From the NCBI RefSeq assembly GCF_024054535.1, contig NZ_JAMXLV010000016.1, positions 1 through 64,000 on the forward strand: a stretch of DNA of 64,000 bases, in the 5' to 3' direction. Positions 5,453-43,612 of this stretch are shown piece by piece; within the stretch, counting starts at the first letter, position 1; each line of letters starts with the position of its first letter. The notes under the pieces are model-generated. The model saw only the letters and a program-made list of their open reading frames with translations, was not told the DNA's origin and did not search any database. Origin of the DNA: Thermococcus alcaliphilus. GTDB taxonomy: Archaea; Methanobacteriota_B; Thermococci; Thermococcales; Thermococcaceae. A program made the translations under genes and the position numbers.

Positions 5453-6315
5453 ATCAGCCCCCTTGTAGATAGAGCATCCCAATAAGTGAATACAGGACCG
5501 TCTTTGCACACGTATTTAATAGAGGTGCTCGTTCCCACGATGCAGTGGCCACATTTTCCAACTCCGCAGCGCATTCTCCTTTCGAGGGTCATGTAAATCC
5601 TTCCCGGAGAGAGTTTTCTATCTAAAAGCTCCTTGATAACGTATTTGTACATCACCGGTGGGCCGCAGATTAGTGCATAGGTGTTTTCAACGTCAAAGGT
5701 TTCTCCTCTAAAGAGGTCTGTAACGACTCCTTTGCATACCCTCGGTGAATAGCCCTTCTCTAAGTATATGCACGAGGGGGTTTCCACTTCGTAGGCGAGC
5801 TTCACATGACAGTTCATATCCTCCCCATGTTTGAGGAGGTGTATCACCTCATCCCTGAAGAGAATATCCTCATAGGCCTTTGTGCCATAGAAGAGGTAGA
5901 TTTTCTCATATTTCCCTGTATCCAGAGCATACCACAGCACTGAGCGGAGGGGAGCCATTCCCAAACCGCCAGCCACGAGAACTAAAGTTGAACCTTCCAT
6001 CTTTTCCATTGGAAAGCCATTGCCATAAGGACCTCTAATCCCAACAATGTCGCCTTCCTTTAGAGTGTGCATGTACTTAGTCATTCTTCCTACCCTTCTT
6101 ACGCAGAGCTGGAAGTAACCCTCTCTTGTGGGAGTTGAGCACAGGCTTATCGGAAACTCTCCAAAGCCCCTTATGTCAACTATAACAAACTGACCGGGCT
6201 TGTATTTGAAGCTTCTGTTGACTTCGGGATCGACAAAACGAAGTGTAAAAAGCTTTTCCCTTGAGGTGAGCTCCTTAACTTCCAAAATCCTCGCATCGTG
6301 CGTTTGGAAGGTCAT
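5449..6315 (-). CDS. shyG: Sulfhydrogenase gamma subunit (FAD/NAD(P)-binding)
   Basis: 288 residues with a ferredoxin-reductase fold. An N-terminal FAD-binding barrel carries KPGQFVIVDI. An NAD(P)-binding half has VLVAGGLGMAPLRSVL. A C-terminal [2Fe-2S] cluster is bound by C250, C255, C258 and C270 (CGVGKCGHC plus YVC). It provides the pyridine nucleotide site of the sulfhydrogenase. The start overlaps the beta stop by 4 bp, so beta, gamma, delta and alpha form one coupled operon. Confidence 0.92.
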   Translation of the reverse strand: MTFQTHDARILEVKELTSREKLFTLRFVDPEVNRSFKYKPGQFVIVDIRGFGEFPISLCSTPTREGYFQLCVRRVGRMTKYMHTLKEGDIVGIRGPYGNGFPMEKMEGSTLVLVAGGLGMAPLRSVLWYALDTGKYEKIYLFYGTKAYEDILFRDEVIHLLKHGEDMNCHVKLAYEVETPSCIYLEKGYSPRVCKGVVTDLFRGETFDVENTYALICGPPVMYKYVIKELLDRKLSPGRIYMTLERRMRCGVGKCGHCIVGTSTSIKYVCKDGPVFTYWDALSTRGLI

Positions 6316-7316
6316 TGTAATCCCTCCCTTACCTCATCAAGAACCTTAACGTGCTCTATCTTAGCTGGACAGAACTCGTCACATCTTCCGCATCCAACGC
6401 AGTTAAAGCCCGCTGAAGGATCAAAGTAGCTCTTACAGTAATAGCGATGCCTGAAGCGATCCAAACGAGTTGGTCTAAAGTTATGTCCTCCAGCAACCAG
6501 ACCGTGGCTTTCCATAAAACAGGAATCGTATCTCCTCACCCTTACTGCCTCATAGGCGTTCATCCATAGGTCGCACACTTCATAGCATCTACACGTCGGA
6601 CAAACCATGTTACAGTTGCCGCATCCAAGACATATCTTCTCGTACTTTTTCCACACCGGGCTGTTAAAGGCTAAGTCAAGCATGTCTTCAAGACCTTCCT
6701 TGTTGAGGTGCTTCTTAAAGGAATTGGCCCTTTTCTCTTCAAACTCCCTGAAGTTCCTCATATCCTCCTCTGTAAGTTCTTCAAAGAGCTCTTCATTTTC
6801 CCATGCAATCTCGTGTCCTTTTACACTACCAACCCTCACTAACCAGCCGTCCGGGAGCTCATGCAAAAATAGATCAAAGCCGTGCATGGCGAAATCTGTT
6901 CCTAAGCTTTTGCAGAAGCAGTATTCATCTGGCATACAGCTCATGCCAATTATTATTGAATTCTCCCTTCTTTTCTTGTAGTAGGGATCTACTGGCTCGT
7001 CAAGGTAAACCTTGTCGAGTATCTCCAATCCGTGGATATCACACGAATGAACCCCAAAGAGAACTATTGGTTCAACCCCATCGCTCTCTTCCCACTTACC
7101 TCCTTTAAGCCTGAGCATTTCATCCTTAGGCCTCACAAAGAACTTCTTCGGAGGAAGCATTGTTCTGGTGTAATCAAAGGCTATCTCTGAAGGTTTCTCG
7201 ACATGCTGGAAGGAATAGATGTTTCCCTTTTTCACCGGGGCATACACTTTGCCCCACTTCTTCAAAGAGTTGAAGAATTCCTCAAAATTTTCCTGAGGTA
7301 GCTTTACATATCGCAA
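6312..7316 (-). CDS. shyB: Sulfhydrogenase beta subunit (4Fe-4S)
   Basis: 334 residues with the proposed start. Two ferredoxin-type cluster motifs are seen: CxxCxxCxxxC at about 229-239 (CLGCGNCNMVC) and again at about 306-316 (CVGCGRCDEFC). Extra Cys residues follow the first motif (PTCRCYEVC). Related to anaerobic sulfite reductase subunit A, hence the polysulfide-reducing activity of these enzymes. I start at TTG 7316 because it gives the family N-terminus MRYVKLP and has GGTGGT just upstream; GTG 7325 overlaps that site. Confidence 0.9.
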   Translation of the reverse strand: MRYVKLPQENFEEFFNSLKKWGKVYAPVKKGNIYSFQHVEKPSEIAFDYTRTMLPPKKFFVRPKDEMLRLKGGKWEESDGVEPIVLFGVHSCDIHGLEILDKVYLDEPVDPYYKKRRENSIIIGMSCMPDEYCFCKSLGTDFAMHGFDLFLHELPDGWLVRVGSVKGHEIAWENEELFEELTEEDMRNFREFEEKRANSFKKHLNKEGLEDMLDLAFNSPVWKKYEKICLGCGNCNMVCPTCRCYEVCDLWMNAYEAVRVRRYDSCFMESHGLVAGGHNFRPTRLDRFRHRYYCKSYFDPSAGFNCVGCGRCDEFCPAKIEHVKVLDEVREGLQ

Positions 7317-7366
7317 GACAACCACCCAAATCCATTATTCAATTTTATGTTTGTAAAGAACGGATT

Positions 7367-7380
7367 TAAGGATTTTTTAA
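7367..7380 (-). promoter_or_regulatory. Probable BRE/TATA region of the sulfhydrogenase operon
   Basis: On the minus strand an A/T run reading TTTAAAAAATCC lies 13 bp downstream of the SurR operator and about 50 bp upstream of the beta start. It is the best TATA candidate in this gap. The exact transcription start cannot be set from sequence. Confidence 0.5.
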
Positions 7381-7393
7381 ACAGAAGGTGCCC

Positions 7394-7410
7394 AACCAAA
7401 TGTTACAAAC
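7394..7410 (-). promoter_or_regulatory. SurR operator upstream of the sulfhydrogenase operon
   Basis: The minus strand reads GTTTGTAACATTTGGTT, an exact match to the extended SurR consensus GTT-n3-AAC-n5-GTT. SurR is the redox-sensitive Thermococcales regulator that activates hydrogenase genes when elemental sulfur is absent. The site lies just upstream of the likely TATA region, which fits activation. The same pattern recurs upstream of hypF. Confidence 0.82.
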
Positions 7411-7432
7411 ATATACTTTATAGTACACTAAT

Positions 7433-7484
7433 GGGGATTGATGATGTTTTATAACTAAGAGTATAACGATGAGCATCAATGTCC
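7433..7484. repeat. Inverted repeat in the shy/nfn divergent gap
   Basis: GGGG followed by ATTGATG (7437-7443) pairs with CATCAAT (7474-7480) followed by GTCCC, giving a 7-bp perfect arm plus a GGG/CCC extension around a 30-nt AT-rich loop. It sits between the SurR site and the nfn promoter. It could be an operator or a leader hairpin of neither gene; nothing coding is seen. Confidence 0.5.
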
Positions 7485-7495
7485 CTATCTGGAAA

Positions 7496-7515
7496 AGGTT
7501 TATATTAGTAAACCT
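7496..7515 (+). promoter_or_regulatory. nfn promoter TATA inside an inverted repeat
   Basis: AGGTTTA and TAAACCT form perfect 7-bp arms separated by TATTAG. The TATA-like TTTATATTA lies inside the element. The start codon is 25 bp downstream of the repeat, so a bound protein would block TBP. This is a candidate repressor site. Confidence 0.55.
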
Positions 7516-7539
7516 ACAAACTAATAGTGGTGATGTCTT

Positions 7540-8376
7540 GTGTTCAAAATAGTTCACAAGGAGAGATTGGCTCCACATATTAATCTTTTTGAAATAGAAG
7601 CACCCAGAATAGCTAAACATGCGAAACCAGGTCAGTTTGTTGTCATAAGGCTTCACGAGAGGGGAGAAAGAATCCCTCTAACGATAGCGGATACAAATCC
7701 CCAAAAAGGTACAATAACGATAGTTGCCCAAGAGGTTGGGAAAACGACCTATGAGTTAGGAACATATGAGGCAGGACAGTACCTTTTAGATGTTCTGGGG
7801 CCCTTGGGACAGCCAAGTCACATAGACAAGTTTGGAACCGTAGTTATGATAGGGGGTGGAGTAGGAGTAGCAGAAATTTATCCCGTTGCAAGAGCCATGA
7901 AAAAAGCGGGGAATTATGTAATATCCATTCTAGGTTTTAGAACCAAAGAACTCGTTTTTTGGGAGGATAAGTTAAGATCGGTAAGTGATGAGGTGATAGT
8001 AACAACTAACGACGGAAGCTATGGGATGAAAGGATTTACAACTCATGCACTTAAAAAGCTCATCGATGAAGGGAGGAAGATAGACCTCGTTCATGCTGTA
8101 GGACCAACTATTATGATGAAATTCGTTGCAGAGCTGACGAAACCCCATGGAATCAAAACCATAGTTAGTCTAAATCCAATAATGGTTGATGCAACAGGCA
8201 TGTGCGGTGTCTGCAGGGTTACTGTAGGGGGAGATATAAAGTTTGCATGTGTAGATGGGCCAGAGTTCGATGGGCATGAAGTTGATTTTGATGAGCTTAT
8301 GAGAAGACTGGATTATTATAAAGACTTGGAGAAACTTTCATTTGAAAAATGGAAGCGCGAGAGGGGGATGGTTTAA
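7540..8376 (+). CDS. nfnS: NADH-dependent ferredoxin:NADP oxidoreductase small subunit (sulfide dehydrogenase beta)
   Basis: 278 residues of the ferredoxin-reductase type. KPGQFVVIRL near the N-terminus marks the FAD site, IGGGVGVAEIYPVA the NAD site, and MCGVCRVTVGG with a later CVDGP the [2Fe-2S] cluster near the C-terminus. With NfnL it bifurcates electrons between NADPH, NAD and ferredoxin; the pair was first named sulfide dehydrogenase. GTG 7540 is preceded by GTGGTGATG. The gene is directly abutted by nfnL and is divergent from the sulfhydrogenase operon, so NADP(H) made by one can be used by the other. Confidence 0.93.
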   Translation: MFKIVHKERLAPHINLFEIEAPRIAKHAKPGQFVVIRLHERGERIPLTIADTNPQKGTITIVAQEVGKTTYELGTYEAGQYLLDVLGPLGQPSHIDKFGTVVMIGGGVGVAEIYPVARAMKKAGNYVISILGFRTKELVFWEDKLRSVSDEVIVTTNDGSYGMKGFTTHALKKLIDEGRKIDLVHAVGPTIMMKFVAELTKPHGIKTIVSLNPIMVDATGMCGVCRVTVGGDIKFACVDGPEFDGHEVDFDELMRRLDYYKDLEKLSFEKWKRERGMV

Positions 8377-9780
<1,404 letters not shown>

Positions 9781-9810: not shown

Positions 9811-10355
9811 ATGGAGTTCTTTGAGGTTGTTAAAAAGAGGAGAAGCATTAGAAAGTATCAGAAGAAAAAGGTTCCAAAGGAGTACGTGGAGAAGATTCTG
9901 GAGGCGGCATTTTATTCCCCAAGCTCAAGGAACAGAAGGCCATGGCACTTCGTAGTTGTTGACGAGGAAGAGCTCATTAAAAAGCTAGCTCAAACAAGAC
10001 CAGCGTTGGAGTTTTTGGAAACAGCGCACCTTTAGCAATAGTTGTATGCGGAGATGAGGAAATAAGCTCCGCTTGGGTGTTTGATGCATCTATAGCGGCA
10101 GAACACATACAGCTGGCTACCACGGCGTTAGGATTAGGTGCATGTTGGGGACATGTACTCGACAGAATGCACAACGAAGAGAAGAGTGCGGAAGACTACG
10201 TAAGAGAGCTCTTAGGAATCCCAGAGCATGTGAGAGTTTTATGCGTCATTGGCATAGGCTATCCCGCCGAAGAAAAGCCGCCCCACAGTGAAAAAGAAGT
10301 AATGTGGGAGAGGGTTCACCGGAACAAGTTTGGAAACTTATGGAAAATGAAGTAA
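9811..10355 (+). pseudogene. Nitroreductase family protein, interrupted by a frameshift
   Basis: The first part (9811-10035) begins MEFFEVVKKRRSIRKYQ and has SPSSRNRRPWHFVVV, the FMN-binding start of a nitroreductase. It then runs out of frame and stops. The remainder continues in another frame, NSAPLAIVVCGDEE...FDASIAAEHIQLATTALGLGACWGHV, to a normal C-terminus at 10355. Adding one base in the T5 run near 10010-10015 would restore one protein of about 181 residues, the usual family length. Either a real mutation or a homopolymer sequencing error. Confidence 0.85.
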
Positions 10356-10357
10356 AG

Positions 10358-11263
10358 CTAAATAACAGCAGGAATCCCCGGAACTCTTGGGAAGGGTTGC
10401 ACCTCAGCTATGTGCTTTGCGCCAACTATATACCTAACAAGCCTCTCCACTCCGATGCCGGCTCCAGCAGAGGGCTTAAGTTTTCCAGCTTTTGCAACCT
10501 CGAGGTAAGGCCTAAAGGCCTCTAAGCTTAACCCGCTTTCCTTAAGCTTTTTAACTATCACATCATACTGCCACTCCCTTTCTCCACCGCTAGAAACCTC
10601 CCCGTAACCTTCGGGCAAGATCAAATCGTAGTTTCTAAAGTGCCCCGGTCTCTCCGGATCTTCCCTGTCGTAGAATTCCCTCGAAATGTCCGTTATCCAG
10701 AAAGGCTCGCTCATTGCCTTACTTGCTTTCTCTTCGTCCCCAAACTCTTCTCTTATTTCGGCCATTGTGAAGCGCTTAAACGGTGACTTAACCTTGGGCA
10801 GTTCTCTCCCTTCAAGTTCATCCCATTTCCTCGCTTCCTTAAAGAGCCCAACCATGAGCTCCTCAATCAACCCCATGACGTCGTCCATAGTGGCATAGGC
10901 TATCTCAAAGTCAAGCTGGGTAAATTCATATGCATGCCTTCCATCGTCTCTATCTCTCTCTTCAAGCCTGATGTTTGGTGAAAGAACAAATATCTTTTCC
11001 AATCCCATCGCTATGGCAAACTGCTTATGCAGAATCATGCTGTGCATCAGCTTTAGTCTTGTCCCATAAGCTTCAATTTCTGGGGCTCTCATTTTACTCG
11101 CCGCCGGATCTGGCCACAAGGGATCGGTTATCGAGCTAAGCATAACCGGCAAGAGCCACTTAAAGCCCTTCTTCACAAAGAAGTCTGTCATATAGTCTAT
11201 AACTTTCGTCTGTACTCTTATCACCTTTTCAATATCCCTGCTTACAAGTTGAACTGCGTTCAT
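10358..11263 (-). CDS. Archaeal asparagine synthetase (AspRS/AsnRS-related)
   Basis: About 301 residues forming only the class II catalytic core, without an anticodon-binding domain. Motif-like stretches are RLKLMHSMILHKQFAIAMG, RDDGRHAYEFTQLDFEIA, GEVSSGGEREWQYD and the motif 3 GAGIGVERLVRYI. A Pyrococcus protein of this type makes asparagine from aspartate. It is not an aspartyl-tRNA synthetase. ATG 11263 follows GGTGATGCTC; two earlier in-frame starts lie in that ribosome site. Confidence 0.87.
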   Translation of the reverse strand: MNAVQLVSRDIEKVIRVQTKVIDYMTDFFVKKGFKWLLPVMLSSITDPLWPDPAASKMRAPEIEAYGTRLKLMHSMILHKQFAIAMGLEKIFVLSPNIRLEERDRDDGRHAYEFTQLDFEIAYATMDDVMGLIEELMVGLFKEARKWDELEGRELPKVKSPFKRFTMAEIREEFGDEEKASKAMSEPFWITDISREFYDREDPERPGHFRNYDLILPEGYGEVSSGGEREWQYDVIVKKLKESGLSLEAFRPYLEVAKAGKLKPSAGAGIGVERLVRYIVGAKHIAEVQPFPRVPGIPAVI

Positions 11264-11481
11264 GAGCATCACCAGTATGAGGAATTACCGAAGTCCTATA
11301 TGTACTTTGTGCAAAAAACTTTGAAAAATTGGTAAATTTGCAAAGAAGTAGGGCTATTATCTTAGATTTTATCCAATAGGTTTATAAAAAACATTGACAC
11401 AATTATCACAAACCCCAGCTATGAACTTTCAATCTCAACAACAAAAAGTCACAAGAAGAGAAGATAAGAAAGGAAAAGACT

Positions 11482-24623: not shown

Positions 24624-26936
24624 TCAAAGTATCAAGTCCTCTTTACTCAGATAACCCTCCAAATAGAGACCTCCAAGGAAAGCCTGGCCGACGTTTGTCC
24701 CATTGTCCCCCCTTGGTACTTCGTACGTTGAGTAGAACCTCAGACCATTGCCTTCCACGATTTTTCTTATCGTTTTCACTATGAGCTCGTTGTATGCAAC
24801 TCCTCCGCTTATGCCAATGTTCTTAACTCCAAACTCCTTCGCCTTCTCAACTGCAACTTCCCCAAAAGCCCGCCCTAGAGCGAGGTGAACTGAATACGCT
24901 ATATCCGCCGGATTTGCCTTGCTTTCAAGAACCTGTTCAAATAATTCCTCAACCTTCAGCTCTTCCCCCTCTATGGGAATGCTAAAGCCAAGATCGTTTT
25001 TGCCCTTAAAGGCAATTCCCTCAAGCTTCATTGCGGGTTCTCCTTCGTAGGTTCTCCTATATGCAACGTTGAGCAGAACAGCCATCGCGTCAAGAACCCT
25101 GCCGGTTGAGGAGGCATAACCAACGTTTATTTCCCTTGCGAGCTGGTTAAGTATTACGTTGAACTCAACCTTCCCGTATCTGAGGTTTTCAACAGCTTTT
25201 GGACAGTGCCTTTCGATTATCTCTTTTACTTCCTCTACCCCATAGAGCTTGCTCAAAATCCCCACTAAAGCCCTAAGAGGATAATAGCTCGCCAAATCTC
25301 CACCTGGGAGGGGGTAATAACTTATATGGGCTAACCTCTCAACGTCTTCGTAGCTTAAGTATAAAACTTCACCCCCCCATGTGTTTCCATCGCTTCCGTA
25401 GCCAACTCCATCCACTGCTATTCCTACTATCTCGTCAAGATTGTTTTCAGCCATAACAGAAGCAATGTGAGCGTAGTGGTGCTGTACTTGGATAAATTCT
25501 GCATTTTCCTCTTCCGCTATCTCCATTGCTAGTTTTGTGGTGTTGTAAAGCGGGTGAAGGTCAGCAACCACAAGGTCAAACCCCTTAATCCTCAGTATTT
25601 TCTTGAAGTGGGCTATGGCACTCCTCATGAATTCAAGAACTTCAACCTTTGAAGTGTTTCCTATGTACTGGCTCGGATAAACCCTCGAGCCCTTTATCAT
25701 TCCAAAAGCATTCATGAGCTCTGCCCCAACTGCCAAGCCCGAATACTCAAAAGGTATATCTATTGGCAATGGAACAAACCCTCTGCTCCTTCTTATTACA
25801 GCCCTTTTTCCATCAACGAACCTGATAACGCTGTCATCCGTTCTGTTGAGAATTTTCCTGTTGTGCAGCAAAAAGTAATCGGCTAAGTCCTTAAGCTCCT
25901 CAAAGGCTCTATCGTTGTCTATTACCATTGGCATTCCCGGGTAATTAGCAGAGGTCATGACGTAAACAGGGCTCTTTGAGTAGTGGAAGAGTATGTAGTG
26001 GGTTCCAGCATAGGGGAGCATGACACCTATAGTGGGCAAGCCCGGGGCTAGAGCCTCTGGCAGTGGGAATGGTTCCTTCTTCCTTAAAGCCACTATTGGC
26101 TTCCTGTAGCTTGTGAGTTCTTCCCTCTCTACATCACTAACTATTGCAAAGCTCTCTACTGTTTCTAGGTCTTTAGCCATTATTGCAAAGGGCTGCTGAG
26201 GTCTTAGAATTCTCCTCCTAAGCTCCTTCACAACTTCTTCATTGGTAGCGTCGCAGGCTATGTGAATCCCACCTATGCCTTTTATTGCCACTATGTAGCC
26301 CTTGTCGATAAGCTCTGCAGCCTTCTTTAGCGGATCTCCCGTTATTTCTTTTCCATCGTTCGTGTAGAGCCTGTAGCTCGGTCCACATACAGGGCAGCAA
26401 ACCGGTTCCGCGTGGTATCTTCTATTTAGAGGATCCCTGTACTCGCTCTCACAATAATCGCACATGTCGAATTCTCTCATTGTTGTGTTTACCCTGTCAT
26501 AAGGAAGGTCTTCTATTATCGTAAACCTCGGACCGCAGTTTGTGCACACGATGAAAGGATACATGTACCTCTTATCCGTGGGATCGAAAAGCTCCCTAAG
26601 ACAGTCATCGCATATGCTCACGTCTGGAGGAATTATAGAATCCCCACCTCCCCCACCGTTGGAGCTCTTTTCTATGTAAAACCTGTCAAATCCCTGAAAC
26701 GGGATTTCTTTCACGTTTATCCTCTCAACCCTAGCAAGGGGAGGTGCTTTTTCTCTAAGGTCTCTCAAGAAGGCCTTTACTTTTTCTTCTTTCCCCTCAA
26801 CCACTATCTCCACTCCAGCATCGCCAAGATTTTTAACGTATCCCCTTAGATCGTGCTCATGAGCAATTCTGTAAACGAAGGGTCTAAAACCGACCCCCTG
26901 GACAATTCCCTCAACGTGAATATGATAAGCTTTCAC
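24624..26936 (-). CDS. hypF: Carbamoyltransferase HypF
   Basis: 770 residues with the full domain order. An N-terminal acylphosphatase (VEGIVQGVGFRPFVYR) leads to two zinc-finger pairs (CDDC...CTNCG, CDYC...CPVCG), a YrdC domain, and a Kae1-like carbamoyltransferase domain (HHYAHIASVMAE, DGVGYGSDGNTWGGE, GISGGVAYNELI). It makes carbamoyl-AMP and transfers the group to HypE. GTG 26936, after AGGTGAAGGTA, gives the family start MKAYHIHVEG; a longer reading would cross the promoter. Confidence 0.95.
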   Translation of the reverse strand: MKAYHIHVEGIVQGVGFRPFVYRIAHEHDLRGYVKNLGDAGVEIVVEGKEEKVKAFLRDLREKAPPLARVERINVKEIPFQGFDRFYIEKSSNGGGGGDSIIPPDVSICDDCLRELFDPTDKRYMYPFIVCTNCGPRFTIIEDLPYDRVNTTMREFDMCDYCESEYRDPLNRRYHAEPVCCPVCGPSYRLYTNDGKEITGDPLKKAAELIDKGYIVAIKGIGGIHIACDATNEEVVKELRRRILRPQQPFAIMAKDLETVESFAIVSDVEREELTSYRKPIVALRKKEPFPLPEALAPGLPTIGVMLPYAGTHYILFHYSKSPVYVMTSANYPGMPMVIDNDRAFEELKDLADYFLLHNRKILNRTDDSVIRFVDGKRAVIRRSRGFVPLPIDIPFEYSGLAVGAELMNAFGMIKGSRVYPSQYIGNTSKVEVLEFMRSAIAHFKKILRIKGFDLVVADLHPLYNTTKLAMEIAEEENAEFIQVQHHYAHIASVMAENNLDEIVGIAVDGVGYGSDGNTWGGEVLYLSYEDVERLAHISYYPLPGGDLASYYPLRALVGILSKLYGVEEVKEIIERHCPKAVENLRYGKVEFNVILNQLAREINVGYASSTGRVLDAMAVLLNVAYRRTYEGEPAMKLEGIAFKGKNDLGFSIPIEGEELKVEELFEQVLESKANPADIAYSVHLALGRAFGEVAVEKAKEFGVKNIGISGGVAYNELIVKTIRKIVEGNGLRFYSTYEVPRGDNGTNVGQAFLGGLYLEGYLSKEDLIL

Positions 26937-26967
26937 TACCTTCACCTGTTTCAGAATTGGAAAAAAG

Positions 26968-26984
26968 GAATTTATATCTTTCCA
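26968..26984 (-). promoter_or_regulatory. hypFE promoter (BRE/TATA)
   Basis: The minus strand reads GGAAAGATATAAATTCC, a good purine-rich BRE plus TATA, 32-48 bp upstream of the hypF GTG. The SurR site begins immediately upstream. Confidence 0.75.
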
Positions 26985-26985
26985 A

Positions 26986-27002
26986 AACCAAAAGTTAAAA
27001 AC
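26986..27002 (-). promoter_or_regulatory. SurR operator upstream of hypF
   Basis: The minus strand reads GTTTTTAACTTTTGGTT, an exact GTT-n3-AAC-n5-GTT SurR site adjoining the BRE. It shares TAAC-n-TTTGGTT with the site before the sulfhydrogenase operon. Confidence 0.8.
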
Positions 27003-27147
27003 TAATGAAGAGTTTTCAACCAAAGGTTTGAAGCTGGGAGTTTTTGGAAAGAGAAATAAAGGGGCTGTTTTGTAAATAGTTAAAATCGTAAAGTTTGTTG
27101 GGGTTTGTAGGGCGAAATTTTTAAATATTTTTTGGAGTGTTTTGTAG

Positions 27148-27319
27148 TGATGGGCAGTCCTCGATATGTGGGGTTTTAAGCCCGAATGGGGACTGTCGAG
27201 AGCCTGAAGATGTGGGGAGTCTCCGTTCCCCCCGAAAGCCCCACGATGAAGATTGGAGTGGGGAAGGTCAGCCGTGCTGATGTTTACAAACTTTATGCGA
27301 GTTACGGCTGACCAGAACG
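27148..27319 (+). ncRNA. GC-rich structured RNA gene candidate (H/ACA-like)
   Basis: An isolated GC-rich stretch in an AT-rich gap, preceded by a TATA-like TTTTTAAATATTTT at 27117-27130. Hairpins can be drawn: CAGTCC with GGACTG, GCCCCAC with GTGGGG, and a perfect 10-bp stem GGTCAGCCGT/ACGGCTGACC. The 3' stem is followed by AGA, which could be an ANA box, and its loop region has TGATG and GCGAG, as in L7Ae-bound kink-turns. This resembles the multi-hairpin H/ACA RNAs of Pyrococcus; I cannot name it. Ends are approximate. Confidence 0.55.
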
Positions 27320-27324
27320 GTTCA

Positions 27325-28020
27325 TCAATACCCCTCATAAAGCCTATACGCCAAAAACTTTGGCAGGCCGGCCTCTATTATCTTCCTCGCTGCCGTATCA
27401 ACGTCATATTCAACCCTTTCAAACACTATCTCATCACTATCCGTATCTATGAATGCATAAGCTGCCCTCCAGTCTCCGTCTCTGGGCTGACCAACTCCGC
27501 CTGGGTTTATTATTCTCCTGTTTCCAATCTCCTTGAGCATCTGCATGTGTGTATGTCCCACAACAAGGTTCTTTTCTCTGAAATACTTCAAAACCTCGAC
27601 AAATTCACTATCGGGGAGCCAGGGAAAGAGGTACTCATCCAGAGGTGCCCTCGGAGAGCCGTGGATTATCAAAAAATCTTCTCCATCGGTTCTAAAAAGT
27701 TGCCTCACAGGAAGCCTTCGAAGGAATTCGATGTTTTCTCCGCTCATCACCCTTTCATGCCATCTTATTGCTTCCCTTGCATAGGGATTAAAACCCCAGG
27801 CAATCCCAAAGGCAACAGCATTATCGTGGTTGCCCCTCACGCAGAGAATTTCCCTCTTTTCCATTTCCTCTCTAAAAAATTCCACGACCTCGTTGGGATT
27901 TGCTCCATAGCCTACTAAATCACCCATGCAGAATACCACCTCGGCTTTCTTTACCCTTTTCCATACAGCCTCCAAGGCTTCGAGGTTTGAGTGGATGTCA
28001 CTTATGAGGGCTATCAGCAT
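27325..28020 (-). CDS. YfcE-like metallophosphoesterase
   Basis: 231 residues with the full calcineurin-like motif series: LISDIHSNLEAL, GDLVGYGANP, RGNHDNAV, IIHGSPRAP and VGHTHMQ. Two metals are expected. The substrate is unknown; relatives are phosphodiesterases on small substrates or DNA/RNA ends. It converges on the RNA gene candidate. Confidence 0.9.
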   Translation of the reverse strand: MLIALISDIHSNLEALEAVWKRVKKAEVVFCMGDLVGYGANPNEVVEFFREEMEKREILCVRGNHDNAVAFGIAWGFNPYAREAIRWHERVMSGENIEFLRRLPVRQLFRTDGEDFLIIHGSPRAPLDEYLFPWLPDSEFVEVLKYFREKNLVVGHTHMQMLKEIGNRRIINPGGVGQPRDGDWRAAYAFIDTDSDEIVFERVEYDVDTAARKIIEAGLPKFLAYRLYEGY

Positions 28021-39221: not shown

Positions 39222-40343
39222 TTAGGGAGACATCAGAAGGACTCTAAGGAGGGGATCCTCTATCCAATATCTTCCTCCTTCCGAACGTATGAATCCTGCT
39301 TTTTCAAGAGTGTCTAGATACTTGTAGATATGCTGAATTCTCCTAGGTGCCTTTTCTGCCTTCTCAAGCTCTCTGTAAACCTCCGCCCCCCTAAGTGCGC
39401 TGGGATATACATTAGCGAGGACTCTAAGCACTTCAACATAAATGGGGCTGCTGTAAACGTTCAAGAAAGCTTCCAAATCCTTTTTCCACTCATCAAGGGC
39501 ATATTTTCTGCTCTCTTCTAGTGCCCTTGGAAGAGCTTTTTCTACAGCAACTCCCCTCCTTACAAGGTTTGTTACAGTTAATCCATAATAAGAAACAAAA
39601 CCTGGAACGCCTCCAAGCTCCCTTACAGCCCTTTCAAGTTCGAGTTCATTTTTTACATTAATACCATAGCTTTCAAAACCTCTTCTCAAAAATTCTACGC
39701 CCTCCACCACGCTCCAGCGCGGGAGTGTAAATATCTCGGCCGAGCGCATAAAGTTTGGCTTACTGGCATCGGGATTCAAATACTCCATAAGTAGACCGGG
39801 CATTGAGCCTGTAAAAATCAGGGATATGTTCGGATAACTGTCCGTTATCTCCTGAAGTAAACCACGAAAATCCAAGTTTTTCAATCTAGCAAGCACCTGG
39901 GCCTCGTCAAAAATAAGGAGTCCTCTTGCTGAGTTTTGAGATAGCACTCTCACAAGAGTAGAAAAGTCCGAAGTAAACTCCTCTATGCTTGTCTTCCTGA
40001 CTTCGACAGAAATCCCGCGAAGGGAAAGGGCGTAGCTCTTACTCATGGTTATAAGTCTTAGAGATGTTCTTTTTGGCTCTACATCGGATATCGAAATAGC
40101 CCTAGCACCAATGAAGCGAGAAAAGTTGAAGTATATGTAGTGATGGTTTCTTCTTTTCGTGAACTTTTCAGCGACCACATTAACAACGCTCGTCTTTCCT
40201 ACACGCCTCGGGCCTAAGAGAACAGAAATATTTCCCCTAAGAACTGCTTGAAAAAGTTTTTCAGCCGTATTTCTGTGCCCTTCTCCCCAAAGGCACTCCT
40301 CCTCCATAATAGGTCTAGTGCTGAAAAAGTTTTTACATACCAT
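39222..40343 (-). CDS. Archaeal STAND-like/AAA ATPase
   Basis: 373 residues. The P-loop is LLGPRRVGKTSVV (near 42-54), Walker B GLLIFDEAQVLARL, sensor FTGSMPG, and a C-terminal winged-helix-like region (EVYRELEKAEKAPRRIQHIYKYLDTLEKAGFI). This is the archaeal ATPase family expanded in Thermococcales, of uncertain role, perhaps nucleic-acid or defence related. The start codon directly follows a strong inverted repeat that would control it. Confidence 0.85.
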   Translation of the reverse strand: MVCKNFFSTRPIMEEECLWGEGHRNTAEKLFQAVLRGNISVLLGPRRVGKTSVVNVVAEKFTKRRNHHYIYFNFSRFIGARAISISDVEPKRTSLRLITMSKSYALSLRGISVEVRKTSIEEFTSDFSTLVRVLSQNSARGLLIFDEAQVLARLKNLDFRGLLQEITDSYPNISLIFTGSMPGLLMEYLNPDASKPNFMRSAEIFTLPRWSVVEGVEFLRRGFESYGINVKNELELERAVRELGGVPGFVSYYGLTVTNLVRRGVAVEKALPRALEESRKYALDEWKKDLEAFLNVYSSPIYVEVLRVLANVYPSALRGAEVYRELEKAEKAPRRIQHIYKYLDTLEKAGFIRSEGGRYWIEDPLLRVLLMSP

Positions 40344-40368
40344 GTAATTTACACCCCATGTAAATTAC
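40344..40368 (-). promoter_or_regulatory. Hairpin/operator overlapping the ribosome site of the ATPase gene
   Basis: GTAATTTACA and TGTAAATTAC form perfect 10-bp arms around TGGGG (minus strand). The GGGGTG ribosome site lies in loop and arm, and the ATG follows at once. Related TTTACATA and TATGTAAT copies flank it. A TATA-like ATTTTTATTA at about 40378-40390 places transcription start near or inside it, so a DNA operator is as likely as an RNA hairpin. Confidence 0.7.
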
Positions 40369-40417
40369 GTTCTATGTAATAAAAATCTTTCGATAAGAAC
40401 CTTACCTCAAAGTCTCA

Positions 40418-40834
40418 TCATTCCACAATTATCTCAACAATCACTTTCTGCCCCGGATTTTTCAGCTTCTCCACAAGTTCCCTTTTAATGTCCTTCGCGG
40501 CTTTGTTTGCTTTTACTGCCAAAGTTCTCCCATCAACGTAGTCGCTCTTTCTTATCACCATAGAAACATCGCTCTCAAAGCTCAGCCTCTCGTCTCCAAA
40601 TGCCTCAAGCTCATCAACAATATCATCAACAATTATCCTTATCTTTATTTTTTTGCCCTTTTTCAGGGCTTCTTTTAACTCATCACTTAGGTCTTTAAGG
40701 GCTTTGTTGGCTTTTATGCATATTATGCAGTCTCCCCTTGGCGTTAGGTAATCCTCCTTCGTTATTTCCAGCGTTGAGCGGTGGGTTGCCTTTACGTTTT
40801 CATGCCCGTAGCAGATGATGGTTTCCTTAATCAT
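40418..40834 (-). CDS. DUF371 family protein
   Basis: 138 residues, two similar halves each with CIKANKALKDLSDELKEAL and AVKANKAAKDIKRELVEKL-type segments, as in archaeal DUF371. It is soluble, with no known function. GGAGGTCAG precedes the ATG; that sequence is part of the right end of the IS200/IS605-like relic. Confidence 0.85.
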   Translation of the reverse strand: MIKETIICYGHENVKATHRSTLEITKEDYLTPRGDCIICIKANKALKDLSDELKEALKKGKKIKIRIIVDDIVDELEAFGDERLSFESDVSMVIRKSDYVDGRTLAVKANKAAKDIKRELVEKLKNPGQKVIVEIIVE

Positions 40835-40835
40835 C

Positions 40836-41252
40836 TGACCTCCTCCCCGCCCCTGAAGGAGGGGTTATGACTCCCGAGAGGAATCCCCTCCTTCAGAAGT
40901 TTCATCGGTTTGTGGGTCCATCACCTACTCCCGTCGCCAGTTTCGGTTTGGCCCACAGGCCCGGTCTTAGGCCCGTTACCCCTACCCGCCCAAGCGGGAT
41001 TGGGGTTATCGCCTTAGAGGCTGCTCCACGAGCTTTTACCACCTAAGGGGGCGGTTCTCAAAGGACGCCTTACGGCGTCATCCTCCCTAAAGGGAGGACA
41101 CAACGAAAGCCCTCTCAAAGAGCACCTTTAAGACGGCCTCCCCGAGGCCTTATTAAGAGGAAAAAGTATTTAAGGCTTTCGACATTTCAAAGGATCAAAC
41201 TCAGAATTTCTGCATCCCCGCCCTAAAGGGGCGAGGCTTTCAGGTGGTAAAA
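40836..41252 (-). mobile_element. IS200/IS605-like relic without transposase, omega-RNA-like
   Basis: A GC-rich, hairpin-rich stretch. On the minus strand it starts near a hairpin GCCTCGCCCCTTTAGGGCGGGG and has a TATA-like CTTAAATACTT. It carries several stem-loops (GGCCTCGGGGAGGCC, CCTCCCTTTAGGGAGG, ACGCCGTAAGGCGT) and ends with GAAGGAGGGG...CCCCTCCTTC followed by GGGGCGGGGAGGAGGTCAG. The last part is the right-end form of IS605-group elements whose TnpB transcript gives the guide RNA. No tnpA or tnpB ORF remains. Borders are estimated. A chromosomal RNA gene of another kind is the alternative. Confidence 0.5.
41034..41252. repeat. Pair of 11-bp inverted repeats bounding about 220 bp
   Basis: TTTTACCACCT at 41034-41044 and AGGTGGTAAAA at 41242-41252 are perfect inverted copies. 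They enclose the promoter-like part and the GC-rich hairpins of the relic. They may be ends of a nested non-autonomous element. Confidence 0.6.
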
Positions 41253-41349
41253 ACCTTTAAAGGGAAGCTTTATAAATTTGGCTGGGAAAAGTTTAAAACA
41301 GCCTCACTTGATTTGGGTGTGGAAATTAAGATTATCGGAGGGATGAGGA

Positions 41350-41553
41350 ATGGGAAACATTAAGCAAGGTTTCATTAAGAGAACCGCGAGAGAGCTCTTC
41401 AACAGGTATCCAAACGAGTTCACAAGGGACTTTGAGCACAACAAAAAGAAGGTTGAGGAGCTAACAAACGTCACAAGCAAAACAATAAGGAACAGAATAG
41501 CTGGCTACATAACAAGGCTTGTAAGACTTAAGGAAGAAGGAAAAATCCTCTAA
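41350..41553 (+). CDS. rps17e: Ribosomal protein S17e
   Basis: 67 residues, complete for the archaeal form: [39 protein letters not shown] and [14 protein letters not shown]. Part of the small subunit. GGAGGGATGAGGA precedes the ATG and a TATA-like CTTTATAAATTT lies at about 41268. The 3' end overlaps the convergent phr gene by 4 bp. Confidence 0.97.
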
Positions 41554-42152
41554 ATCAGTTCTCTCTTTATCCTTTTTAAATCCTCAAGGATTTCTCTTGG
41601 GAGTATATCCTCGAATTCCTTCAAAAGCTCATCAAACTGCTCCTCGCTTTCTCTGGCAATTCTGCGCATAAGGCTCTTTATGTAAGTCTCAGTGAGCATT
41701 CTGACCTCTTCAAGCTCGCTCTTCATTCTCATATACTCGTCTATTTTTTGCTCTATCTCACTTAAGAAGGAAGAAAGTTCTCTGATTTTTTCTTCAATTG
41801 GTTCTTGGGACTTTATGAGCTGCTTTATCTCCTCATATTCCTTCGTTTGTCTTGGGGCTTTTGGCTCATACATCTCGGTGCCGAAGGAATACGGCGTGAG
41901 GAGAACCTCCAACCTAATGCCCCTCTTTATTTGGTAGTACTTCCTAGGCCTGCCCCTCGGAATCTTCTCTATCCTGCCCTCAATCAGCCCAGCACTCTCA
42001 AGTATTCTAAGGTGCTCAAGGATAGCCTTTTGCCCAACTCCCAATTCCTTCGAGAGCTCGCTTACAAAGTAGGGTCGTTTGGTAAGCAAGAGCAGTATCC
42101 TCCTTCTCGTCTCGTTTCCAAGGACATCAAGTAACCTTCCATGCTCCTCCAT
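41550..42152 (-). CDS. phr: Heat-shock transcription regulator Phr
   Basis: 200 residues. The ArsR-like winged helix occupies the first 80: [42 protein letters not shown] then the wing [15 protein letters not shown] middle linker and a long C-terminal coiled coil follow. The sequence tracks Pyrococcus Phr closely. Phr represses heat-shock genes (hsp20, AAA ATPase and itself). ATG 42152 follows GGGGTGAGACT. Confidence 0.92.
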
Positions 42153-42288
42153 AGTCTCACCCCGTGATGAGAGTGACATCTTCCTCTTATCTAACTTAAT
42201 GTAAATAAAAATCCTACTTAAATCTTTTGGTTTTAACTACACAAAATTACTTTAAGGTTTAAGGGAGAATATATTTTTGGTGACCCCT

Positions 42289-42921
42289 ATGAGAGTTGTT
42301 GGAGGAATCCACCTGGTAGATGAAACTTTTGCAAACGTCTATCTGATAGAAAGGGGAGAAAAGCTTCTCCTTATAGATGCCGGACTTCCAGAGGAGTATG
42401 AGAAGGTTTTGAGGTACATAGAAAAGCTCGGCTACGTTCCAGAGGATGTGGAGGTAATAATAGTAACCCATGCCCACTACGACCATGTGGGCTCTTTAAA
42501 AAACCTTAAAGACGCAACCAGTGCAAATGTTGCAGCCCATAAAGACGAGGTCCCCTATTTGAAGGGAGAGAAAACCTACAGGAGAGAAATAGAACCAGTT
42601 GATGTTGAAATAGAGCTGAACGACGGAGATGAGATCGAGGGGCTGAGAGTTATCCACTCTCCGGGGCATACTCCCGGGAGCATTTGTTTGCTCGACTTGG
42701 AGACAAAAGCTCTCTTTGTGGGGGATTTGGTTATGGAGGAAAACGGAAGGCTTGAAGAGATTCCGCACCATTATTCCCTCGATCCAATGAAGAACAGGGA
42801 AGCCATAAAAAGACTTTTGGAGGTTGATTTCGTGCATTTACTGCCAAGTCATGGAAAGCCGATCTTAAACGACGGGAAGGAGAAGTTGAGGGAGCTTGTG
42901 GAGAGGCTTCAGTCTGAATAA
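42289..42921 (+). CDS. MBL-fold metallohydrolase
   Basis: 210 residues with the metal motif THAHYDHVGSL (HxHxDH), then HSPGHTPGSI, LFVGDLVM and a final LLPSHGKPI. This is the glyoxalase II-like branch. The substrate is unknown. ATG 42289 sits 5 bases after GGTGA; GTG 42277 is within that stretch. It is divergent from phr. Confidence 0.88.
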   Translation: MRVVGGIHLVDETFANVYLIERGEKLLLIDAGLPEEYEKVLRYIEKLGYVPEDVEVIIVTHAHYDHVGSLKNLKDATSANVAAHKDEVPYLKGEKTYRREIEPVDVEIELNDGDEIEGLRVIHSPGHTPGSICLLDLETKALFVGDLVMEENGRLEEIPHHYSLDPMKNREAIKRLLEVDFVHLLPSHGKPILNDGKEKLRELVERLQSE

Positions 42922-42962
42922 TTTAGAGATCTTTAATCTACTTCAATTTTTATCTTAAAACC

Positions 42963-43612
<650 letters not shown>

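Follow-up and report, generated by a model that had tools for sequence, protein, structure and literature searches.

A putatively SurR-controlled divergent promoter beside the shy operon of Thermococcus alcaliphilus, with a probably exchanged right-hand partner

SurR is reported to bind DNA in the absence of sulfur and to lose binding upon oxidation, and Nfn is among the genes described as being under negative SurR control (PMC8595942, in excerpt). In T. piezophilus, a long SurR motif is given at 69 for SHII and at 72 for NfnI (PMC8595942 Table 2, in excerpt); the two are neighbours by locus tag, as at the locus described here, and share the same long motif, and the distances indicate that the two entries are probably one shared site. 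In T. barophilus, one long SurR motif lies 67 bp upstream of TERMP_RS00325 (PMC12162507 Table 2). When the DNA-binding part of SurR is lost in this species, shII expression falls at both 0.1 and 40 MPa, although the deviations overlap at 0.1 MPa without sulfur; under 70 MPa and in the presence of sulfur it rises 18-fold (PMC12162507 section 3.4). The 18-fold rise indicates that simple activation does not fully describe the effect of SurR on shII.

In what follows, SuDH I is taken to be NfnI. Proteomics of T. onnurineus detected the SHII subunit TON_0054 on starch and not on sulfur, and SudA of SuDH I (TON_0057) on sulfur only (PMC4463584, in excerpt). With sulfur, P. furiosus shows SHII down and SuDH I up, while in Palaeococcus pacificus SHII is without clear change (PMC6981617, tabulated part). 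A second transhydrogenase, Nfn-Bfu, was purified from the T. sibiricus operon Tsib1517–1519, and Thermococcaceae are stated to have Nfn-Bfu or NfnAB, never both (PMC9304861, in excerpt). It is an NADPH-linked bifurcating transhydrogenase, like NsoABC and StnABC (PMC7483475 and PMC10482914, in excerpt) and like the predicted product of the operon considered here; one shared place beside SHII, or exchange at that place, comes from the present analysis and is absent from the excerpted accounts.

Two parts of the picture are therefore already published: that SHII and NfnI have SurR sites, and that Nfn-Bfu and NfnAB exclude each other. A literature search for one seat beside SHII, for crossover in a shared promoter and for spacers derived from an old promoter found none of the three, although a 2008 T. 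litoralis Nso paper, cited in PMC7483475 and PMC10482914, may cover the neighbourhood. Here we analysed 64,000 nucleotides of T. alcaliphilus (the window), in which shy and nfn are divergently arranged (Table 1). The gap between them is probably a divergent promoter under SurR control, at which the operon on the right has been exchanged. Of the two inverted repeats in it, the long one is judged accidental and the one over the nfn TATA box is left undecided.

Table 1. Features of the shy/nfn locus, in window coordinates.
Feature	Position	Strand	Basis
shyB, first gene of shyBGDA (soluble hydrogenase II type)	6312..7325	-	ORF, Fer4_22 domain
shy TATA box and BRE, GGATTTAAGGATTTTTT on the + strand	7362..7378	-	conserved in alignments; role inferred
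compound SurR site AACn5GTGn3AACn5GTTn3AAC	7380..7410		14/15 consensus letters
block like the stretch directly upstream of relatives' nfn-bfu TATA box	7411..7427	+	alignment, pattern test
position of nfn-bfu TATA box; here CTAATGGGG	7428..7436	+	alignment; moderate support
long inverted repeat ATTGATG/CATCAAT, judged accidental	7437..7480		sequence, shuffles, relatives' gaps
nfn BRE and TATA box	7490..7507	+	aligned with nfn promoters of other gaps; role inferred
repeat AGGTTTA/TAAACCT over the nfn TATA box	7496..7515		sequence, relatives' gaps
likely nfnS ribosome-binding site, TGGTGAT	7528..7534	+	sequence
nfnS, NfnI small subunit	7540..8376	+	ORF, orthologs, domains
nfnL, NfnI large subunit	8377..9780	+	ORF, domains
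nitroreductase-like gene, right neighbour of the cassette, frameshifted in the window	9811..10355	+	sequence

The SurR site and its setting

The shyB ortholog of genome G086 starts at C1:59761, which is the coordinate of the SHII gene TERMP_RS00325 of T. barophilus (PMC12162507 Table 2), and the window's shy operon is therefore of the SHII type. The T. barophilus SHII promoter is thus that of a shyB ortholog with the same motif at the coordinates of G086; unlike the window, it has a short gap that lacks the block typical of gaps without nfn. In the window, a likely start codon of shyB is the TTG at 7316. Orthologs of nfnS were found in 24 other genomes at 75–94% identity, among the matches listed, and nfnL directly follows nfnS in the window and in the three other nfn loci read far enough (G080, G075 and G086). 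A scan of a collection of genome contigs with NfnS gave mainly distant Nfn proteins. We refer below to G000 (the window genome), G080, G079 and G075 as the window clade.

The initial annotation had placed three stacked control elements within about 120 bp of this gap. All three can be seen in the sequence, but only the SurR element finds support as a candidate control site. The long SurR motif is present at 7394–7410 on the minus strand (GTTTGTAACATTTGGTT) and, as that annotation had it, probably represents a SurR site; it is kept across the gaps of the family. The compound site is larger than annotated and includes an element overlooked there: five half sites, AAC, GTG, AAC, GTT and AAC, follow one another at spacings of 5, 3, 5 and 3 bases.

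Long SurR motifs occur at 19 places genome-wide versus 11 for a reversed control pattern, so that the motif alone is weak proof, and position and conservation weigh more. In the aligned shy/nfn gaps the motif sits between the two core promoters; it is present in 22 of 23 such gaps (G012 being the exception) and in all 29 examined shy gaps without nfn, and it arises by chance in 0.3% of dinucleotide shuffles of the gap. The genome encodes SurR itself at G000:C20:4422-5099, with 71% identity to the T. barophilus protein over residues 1–226. The fifth half site was also considered as a marker of gaps without nfn and was dropped in favour of the block that follows the site (see below), as it occurs in 11 of 23 nfn gaps besides 29 of 29 without nfn.

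One seat beside shy for two cassettes

We surveyed 94 genomes of the family, calling NfnS orthologs at a threshold of at least 75% identity. Among the matches listed, NfnS orthologs occur in 25/94 genomes, BfuB in 43/94 and both in 0/94 (hypergeometric P 6e-9, with relatedness ignored); G003, whose BfuB is 62% identical, was counted as having neither. Among the same matches, nfn adjoins shy on the opposite strand in 23/23 carriers having shy, and bfu does so in 38/38. The remaining matches comprise nfn without shy (G057 and G088), bfu without shy (G018, G024, G027, G050 and G058) and shy with neither cassette (G067, G083 and G091). In G083 nothing more than a BfuC fragment is present on the contig; the shy match of G067 is close to the start of its contig, and no BfuB was found in that genome. 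Gaps were read in all 23 nfn genomes with shy and in 29 genomes without nfn, 27 of them among the 38 with bfu beside shy.

In the five loci read (G077, G002, G038, G084 and G078), the seat that nfn occupies in the window holds a three-gene operon for a NuoE-like protein, a NuoF-like protein of 600–602 aa and a protein of 953–971 aa, which in G077 carry PF01257, PF01512 with PF10589, and PF14691 with PF07992, respectively. Its predicted product is an Nfn-Bfu (NsoABC, StnABC-like) transhydrogenase. This assignment was made from the parts of the operon and from its presence in T. sibiricus and T. litoralis, which we take to be G078 and G077; G026 is likewise taken to be T. onnurineus. To the right of the cassette stands a gene that we take, from its sequence, to be nitroreductase-like; it follows the three-gene operon in G077, G002, G084 and G078 and nfnL in the window, G080, G075 and G086, and is lacking after the cassette in G038. 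In the window this gene is split by a frameshift (74 + 92 aa), which could be a sequencing error; it is intact, at 177–180 aa, in G077, G080 and G075.

The shared seat, together with a promoter block of the nfn-less type in the window clade and G093 (see below), suggests that nfnSL probably replaced nfn-bfu behind the SurR promoter. Between G000 and G077, a bfu carrier, identity reaches 96% in shyB and 98% in ORF 10358–11272, although the cassettes that separate the two genes differ. On the right flank, the nitroreductase genes of the two are 91% identical, falling to 77–80% in the last third, and G077 has an extra ORF of 537 aa before the next shared gene. By these comparisons the right flank is a mosaic, which counts against a simple exchange.

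A sharp breakpoint is seen in G084. Its bfu operon shares 90.4% identity with the one in G002, a member of another genus, and 72.9–74.3% with those of its genus mates G077, G078, G076, G081 and G082. With gap columns omitted, 25 of 27 informative columns to the left of its shy core promoter match its own genus, whereas to the right 20 of 23 are G002-like. Both the shyB tree and a tree of the SHI operon, which is unlinked, place G084 with G075 and G079; nfn and bfu genomes are mixed in both trees, some nodes of the shyB tree being weak. We give about even credence to the wider reading that the seat is exchangeable, with nfnSL and nfn-bfu cassettes moving between species and genera by homologous recombination, crossovers falling in the SurR–shy core promoter and near the nitroreductase gene, the incoming enzyme landing behind a ready-made sulfur switch, and the relic in the window clade freeing nfn from that switch.

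A shared chromosomal seat in SHII genomes is offered as an explanation for the exclusion of Nfn-Bfu and NfnAB (PMC9304861, in excerpt). The seat would be only part of the story, since five bfu carriers and two nfn carriers are without a shy match among the matches listed. The locus also amounts to a natural promoter-rewiring experiment, in which close genomes with similar flanks differ in the enzyme and in its distance from the SurR site.

Further observations were made in these genomes. In G018, which is without a full shyB of this type among the matches listed, a short shyB-like fragment (G018:C1:872134-872295, 54% identity) with a stop codon lies beside BfuB and is perhaps the remains of a lost hydrogenase. 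In G076, shyB is split near its 5′ end by 932 bp (L270, G076:C5:545579-546560), and 7 bp of the query find a match on either side of the interruption, a pattern like that left by a transposon insertion. Within the window, 40000–43000 was scored as 100% identical to G077 throughout, versus 96% for shyB, so that relatedness to G077 is uneven along the window; a piece near 40835–41250 recurs in many genomes of the genus.

The spacer and the control of nfn

Reduced SurR may bind 7380–7410, just upstream of the shy BRE, and thereby activate shy. In short-gap genomes, the same site lies 7–32 bp from the nfn TATA box, measured from the end of the 25-letter SurR site to the TATA-like box, and may repress nfn. 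Such a block of nfn would account for the opposite sulfur response reported for these genomes. Opposite control of the divergent operons, which the initial annotation had considered for this locus, is thus plausible for the short-gap relatives, going by the T. onnurineus proteomics of SHII and SudA (PMC4463584, in excerpt).

The window clade differs in this respect, as its nfn TATA box is 88 bp from position 7410, or 94 bp when counted from where the 25-letter part ends. A search for a second SurR site in the window-clade spacer gave a best match of 7/12, which is chance level. Given this distance and the lack of a second site, we predict that nfn in the window clade has probably lost, or escaped, direct SurR control. 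In G093, a second compound SurR site (11/12 letters, P 0.0003) stands directly before the nfn BRE.

We regard it as unlikely that nfn of the window clade is still controlled by SurR, be it from 88 bp or through an older TATA-like box at 7416–7423 with a long leader. The sequence CTTTATAG at 7416–7423 is TATA-like and identical in G000, G080 and G093, as that explanation would have it, but G079 and G075 have CTTTGAGG there, and the proximal nfn BRE/TATA is kept in all four clade members. Specifically, comparison of G000 with G075 (and likewise with G079) gives 19/20 identical positions in the nfn BRE/TATA and 16/17 in the shy core promoter, versus 50/61 in the spacer at 7428–7488; identity to G000 at the nfnS start is 87/101 in G075 and 89 in G079.

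The spacer itself appears to come from the promoter of another operon, which the initial annotation had overlooked. Distances between the shy and nfn matches are 140–168 in 18 genomes, 224–225 in the window clade and 249 in G093, the window-clade gap being 56–84 bp longer than in the 18 others. In the 20 bases that follow the SurR site, an [AG]T[AG]CTTT block is found in 29/29 gaps without nfn and in 5/23 nfn gaps, namely the four of the window clade and that of G093, and in 0/18 of the other nfn gaps. The greater length in the window clade and G093 is thus probably explained by nfnSL standing behind a block typical of gaps without nfn. TATAAAC follows just after the block in nine aligned gaps without nfn, and the nfn-bfu TATA position reads TTTATAAAC in most aligned relatives, TTTATAAGC in G093 and CTAATGGGG or similar in the window clade.

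When 61 offsets are compared, ungapped similarity to Bfu-type promoters is highest at the homologous one, for the clade as well as for G093. Over 27 columns, the consensus P is 0.00015 for G093 and 0.012 for the clade, the latter becoming 0.13 over 35 columns and 0.085 over columns 8–27, with the first 8 dropped. The homology of 7428–7450 to the Bfu promoter is accordingly weak by itself and leans on G093. That the spacer is instead a new insertion or a random expansion in the window clade, without any relic of an nfn-bfu promoter, would fit this weak similarity, yet it sits badly with the distribution of the block (29/29 nfn-less gaps and G093, 0/18 other nfn gaps) and with the nfn-bfu TATA box retained by G093, and we hold it to be improbable.

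On the preferred reading of a relic, an exchange would have separated the SurR site from the nfn promoter by about 80 bp of former nfn-bfu control region and spacer. In G093 the Bfu-type and nfn-type control regions look freshly joined, because it keeps TTTATAAGC and the second SurR site; the clade has nothing above chance, and its join looks older and decayed. Since nfn is preceded there by two compound SurR sites and by a former nfn-bfu TATA box that seems intact, the G093 gap may represent a near-complete intermediate of the exchange.

Inverted repeats and further SurR motifs

The two inverted repeats that the initial annotation had listed as control elements exist: ATTGATG at 7437–7443 pairs with CATCAAT at 7474–7480, and AGGTTTA at 7496–7502 with TAAACCT at 7509–7515. 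Of the four clade members, G000 and G080 have both arms of the long repeat unchanged, whereas G079 and G075 read ATTAATG/CACCAGT. A formal search recovered the pair in 2/23 shy/nfn gaps and 0/29 gaps without nfn (2/52 overall). The conservation among relatives on which the annotation had let this element stand or fall is therefore lacking. When the 122-bp region is shuffled, 36% of the shuffles contain one or more perfect 7-bp inverted repeats with a spacer of up to 40, and 7% contain two or more. As an operator, the long repeat was ruled out by its unkept arms and by the chance frequency of such repeats; it falls in what would be leftover spacer and appears accidental.

The repeat over the nfn TATA box is a less clear case. 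It is present in 4/23 shy/nfn gaps, all of the window clade (G000, G080, G079 and G075), and in 0/29 gaps without nfn; its arms are identical in 4/4 clade members and found in 0/48 other gaps, a clade of four genomes only. As a control element, it thus holds up within the clade and fails in conservation outside it. One arm coincides with the BRE/TATA box, and a perfect 7-bp inverted repeat with a spacer of up to 10 occurs in 13% of shuffles of the 122-bp region. A second exact copy was sought in the genome and none was found; with up to two mismatches there are 19 places, itself included, versus 11 for the reversed control. The repeat was accordingly rejected as a recurring genome motif. Since half of it is BRE/TATA and only four genomes bear on it, a function is possible and we leave it undecided.

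We consider it very unlikely that all three elements are functional, with SurR joined by a factor bridging ATTGATG/CATCAAT and with AGGTTTA/TAAACCT serving a repressor of the nfn TATA box, since, real as both repeats are, unique in the genome as ATTGATG-N20-40-CATCAAT is (reversed control 0) and identical as the TATA-repeat arms are across the clade, the long-repeat arms fail in two of four clade members, where no change in one arm is compensated in the other, and none of the other gaps searched has them, such repeats are not rare by chance, and the TATA repeat has no second exact copy and a near-copy count of 19 versus 11 for the control. Short inverted repeats in gaps of this kind can be debris and call for caution.

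Long SurR motifs were also seen at two other places. At G000:C21:170511-170559, three of them precede, by about 50 bp, a match to an NfnS paralog that starts at C21:170607, among the matches listed, and this paralog may keep SurR control. In the window, two long SurR motifs in opposite orientation lie at 26986–27028, inside the 5′ part of ORF 24624–27338 (minus strand), the protein of which we take to look like HypF. This protein probably starts downstream of both motifs, in which case 26986–27028 may be a SurR promoter for hydrogenase maturation.
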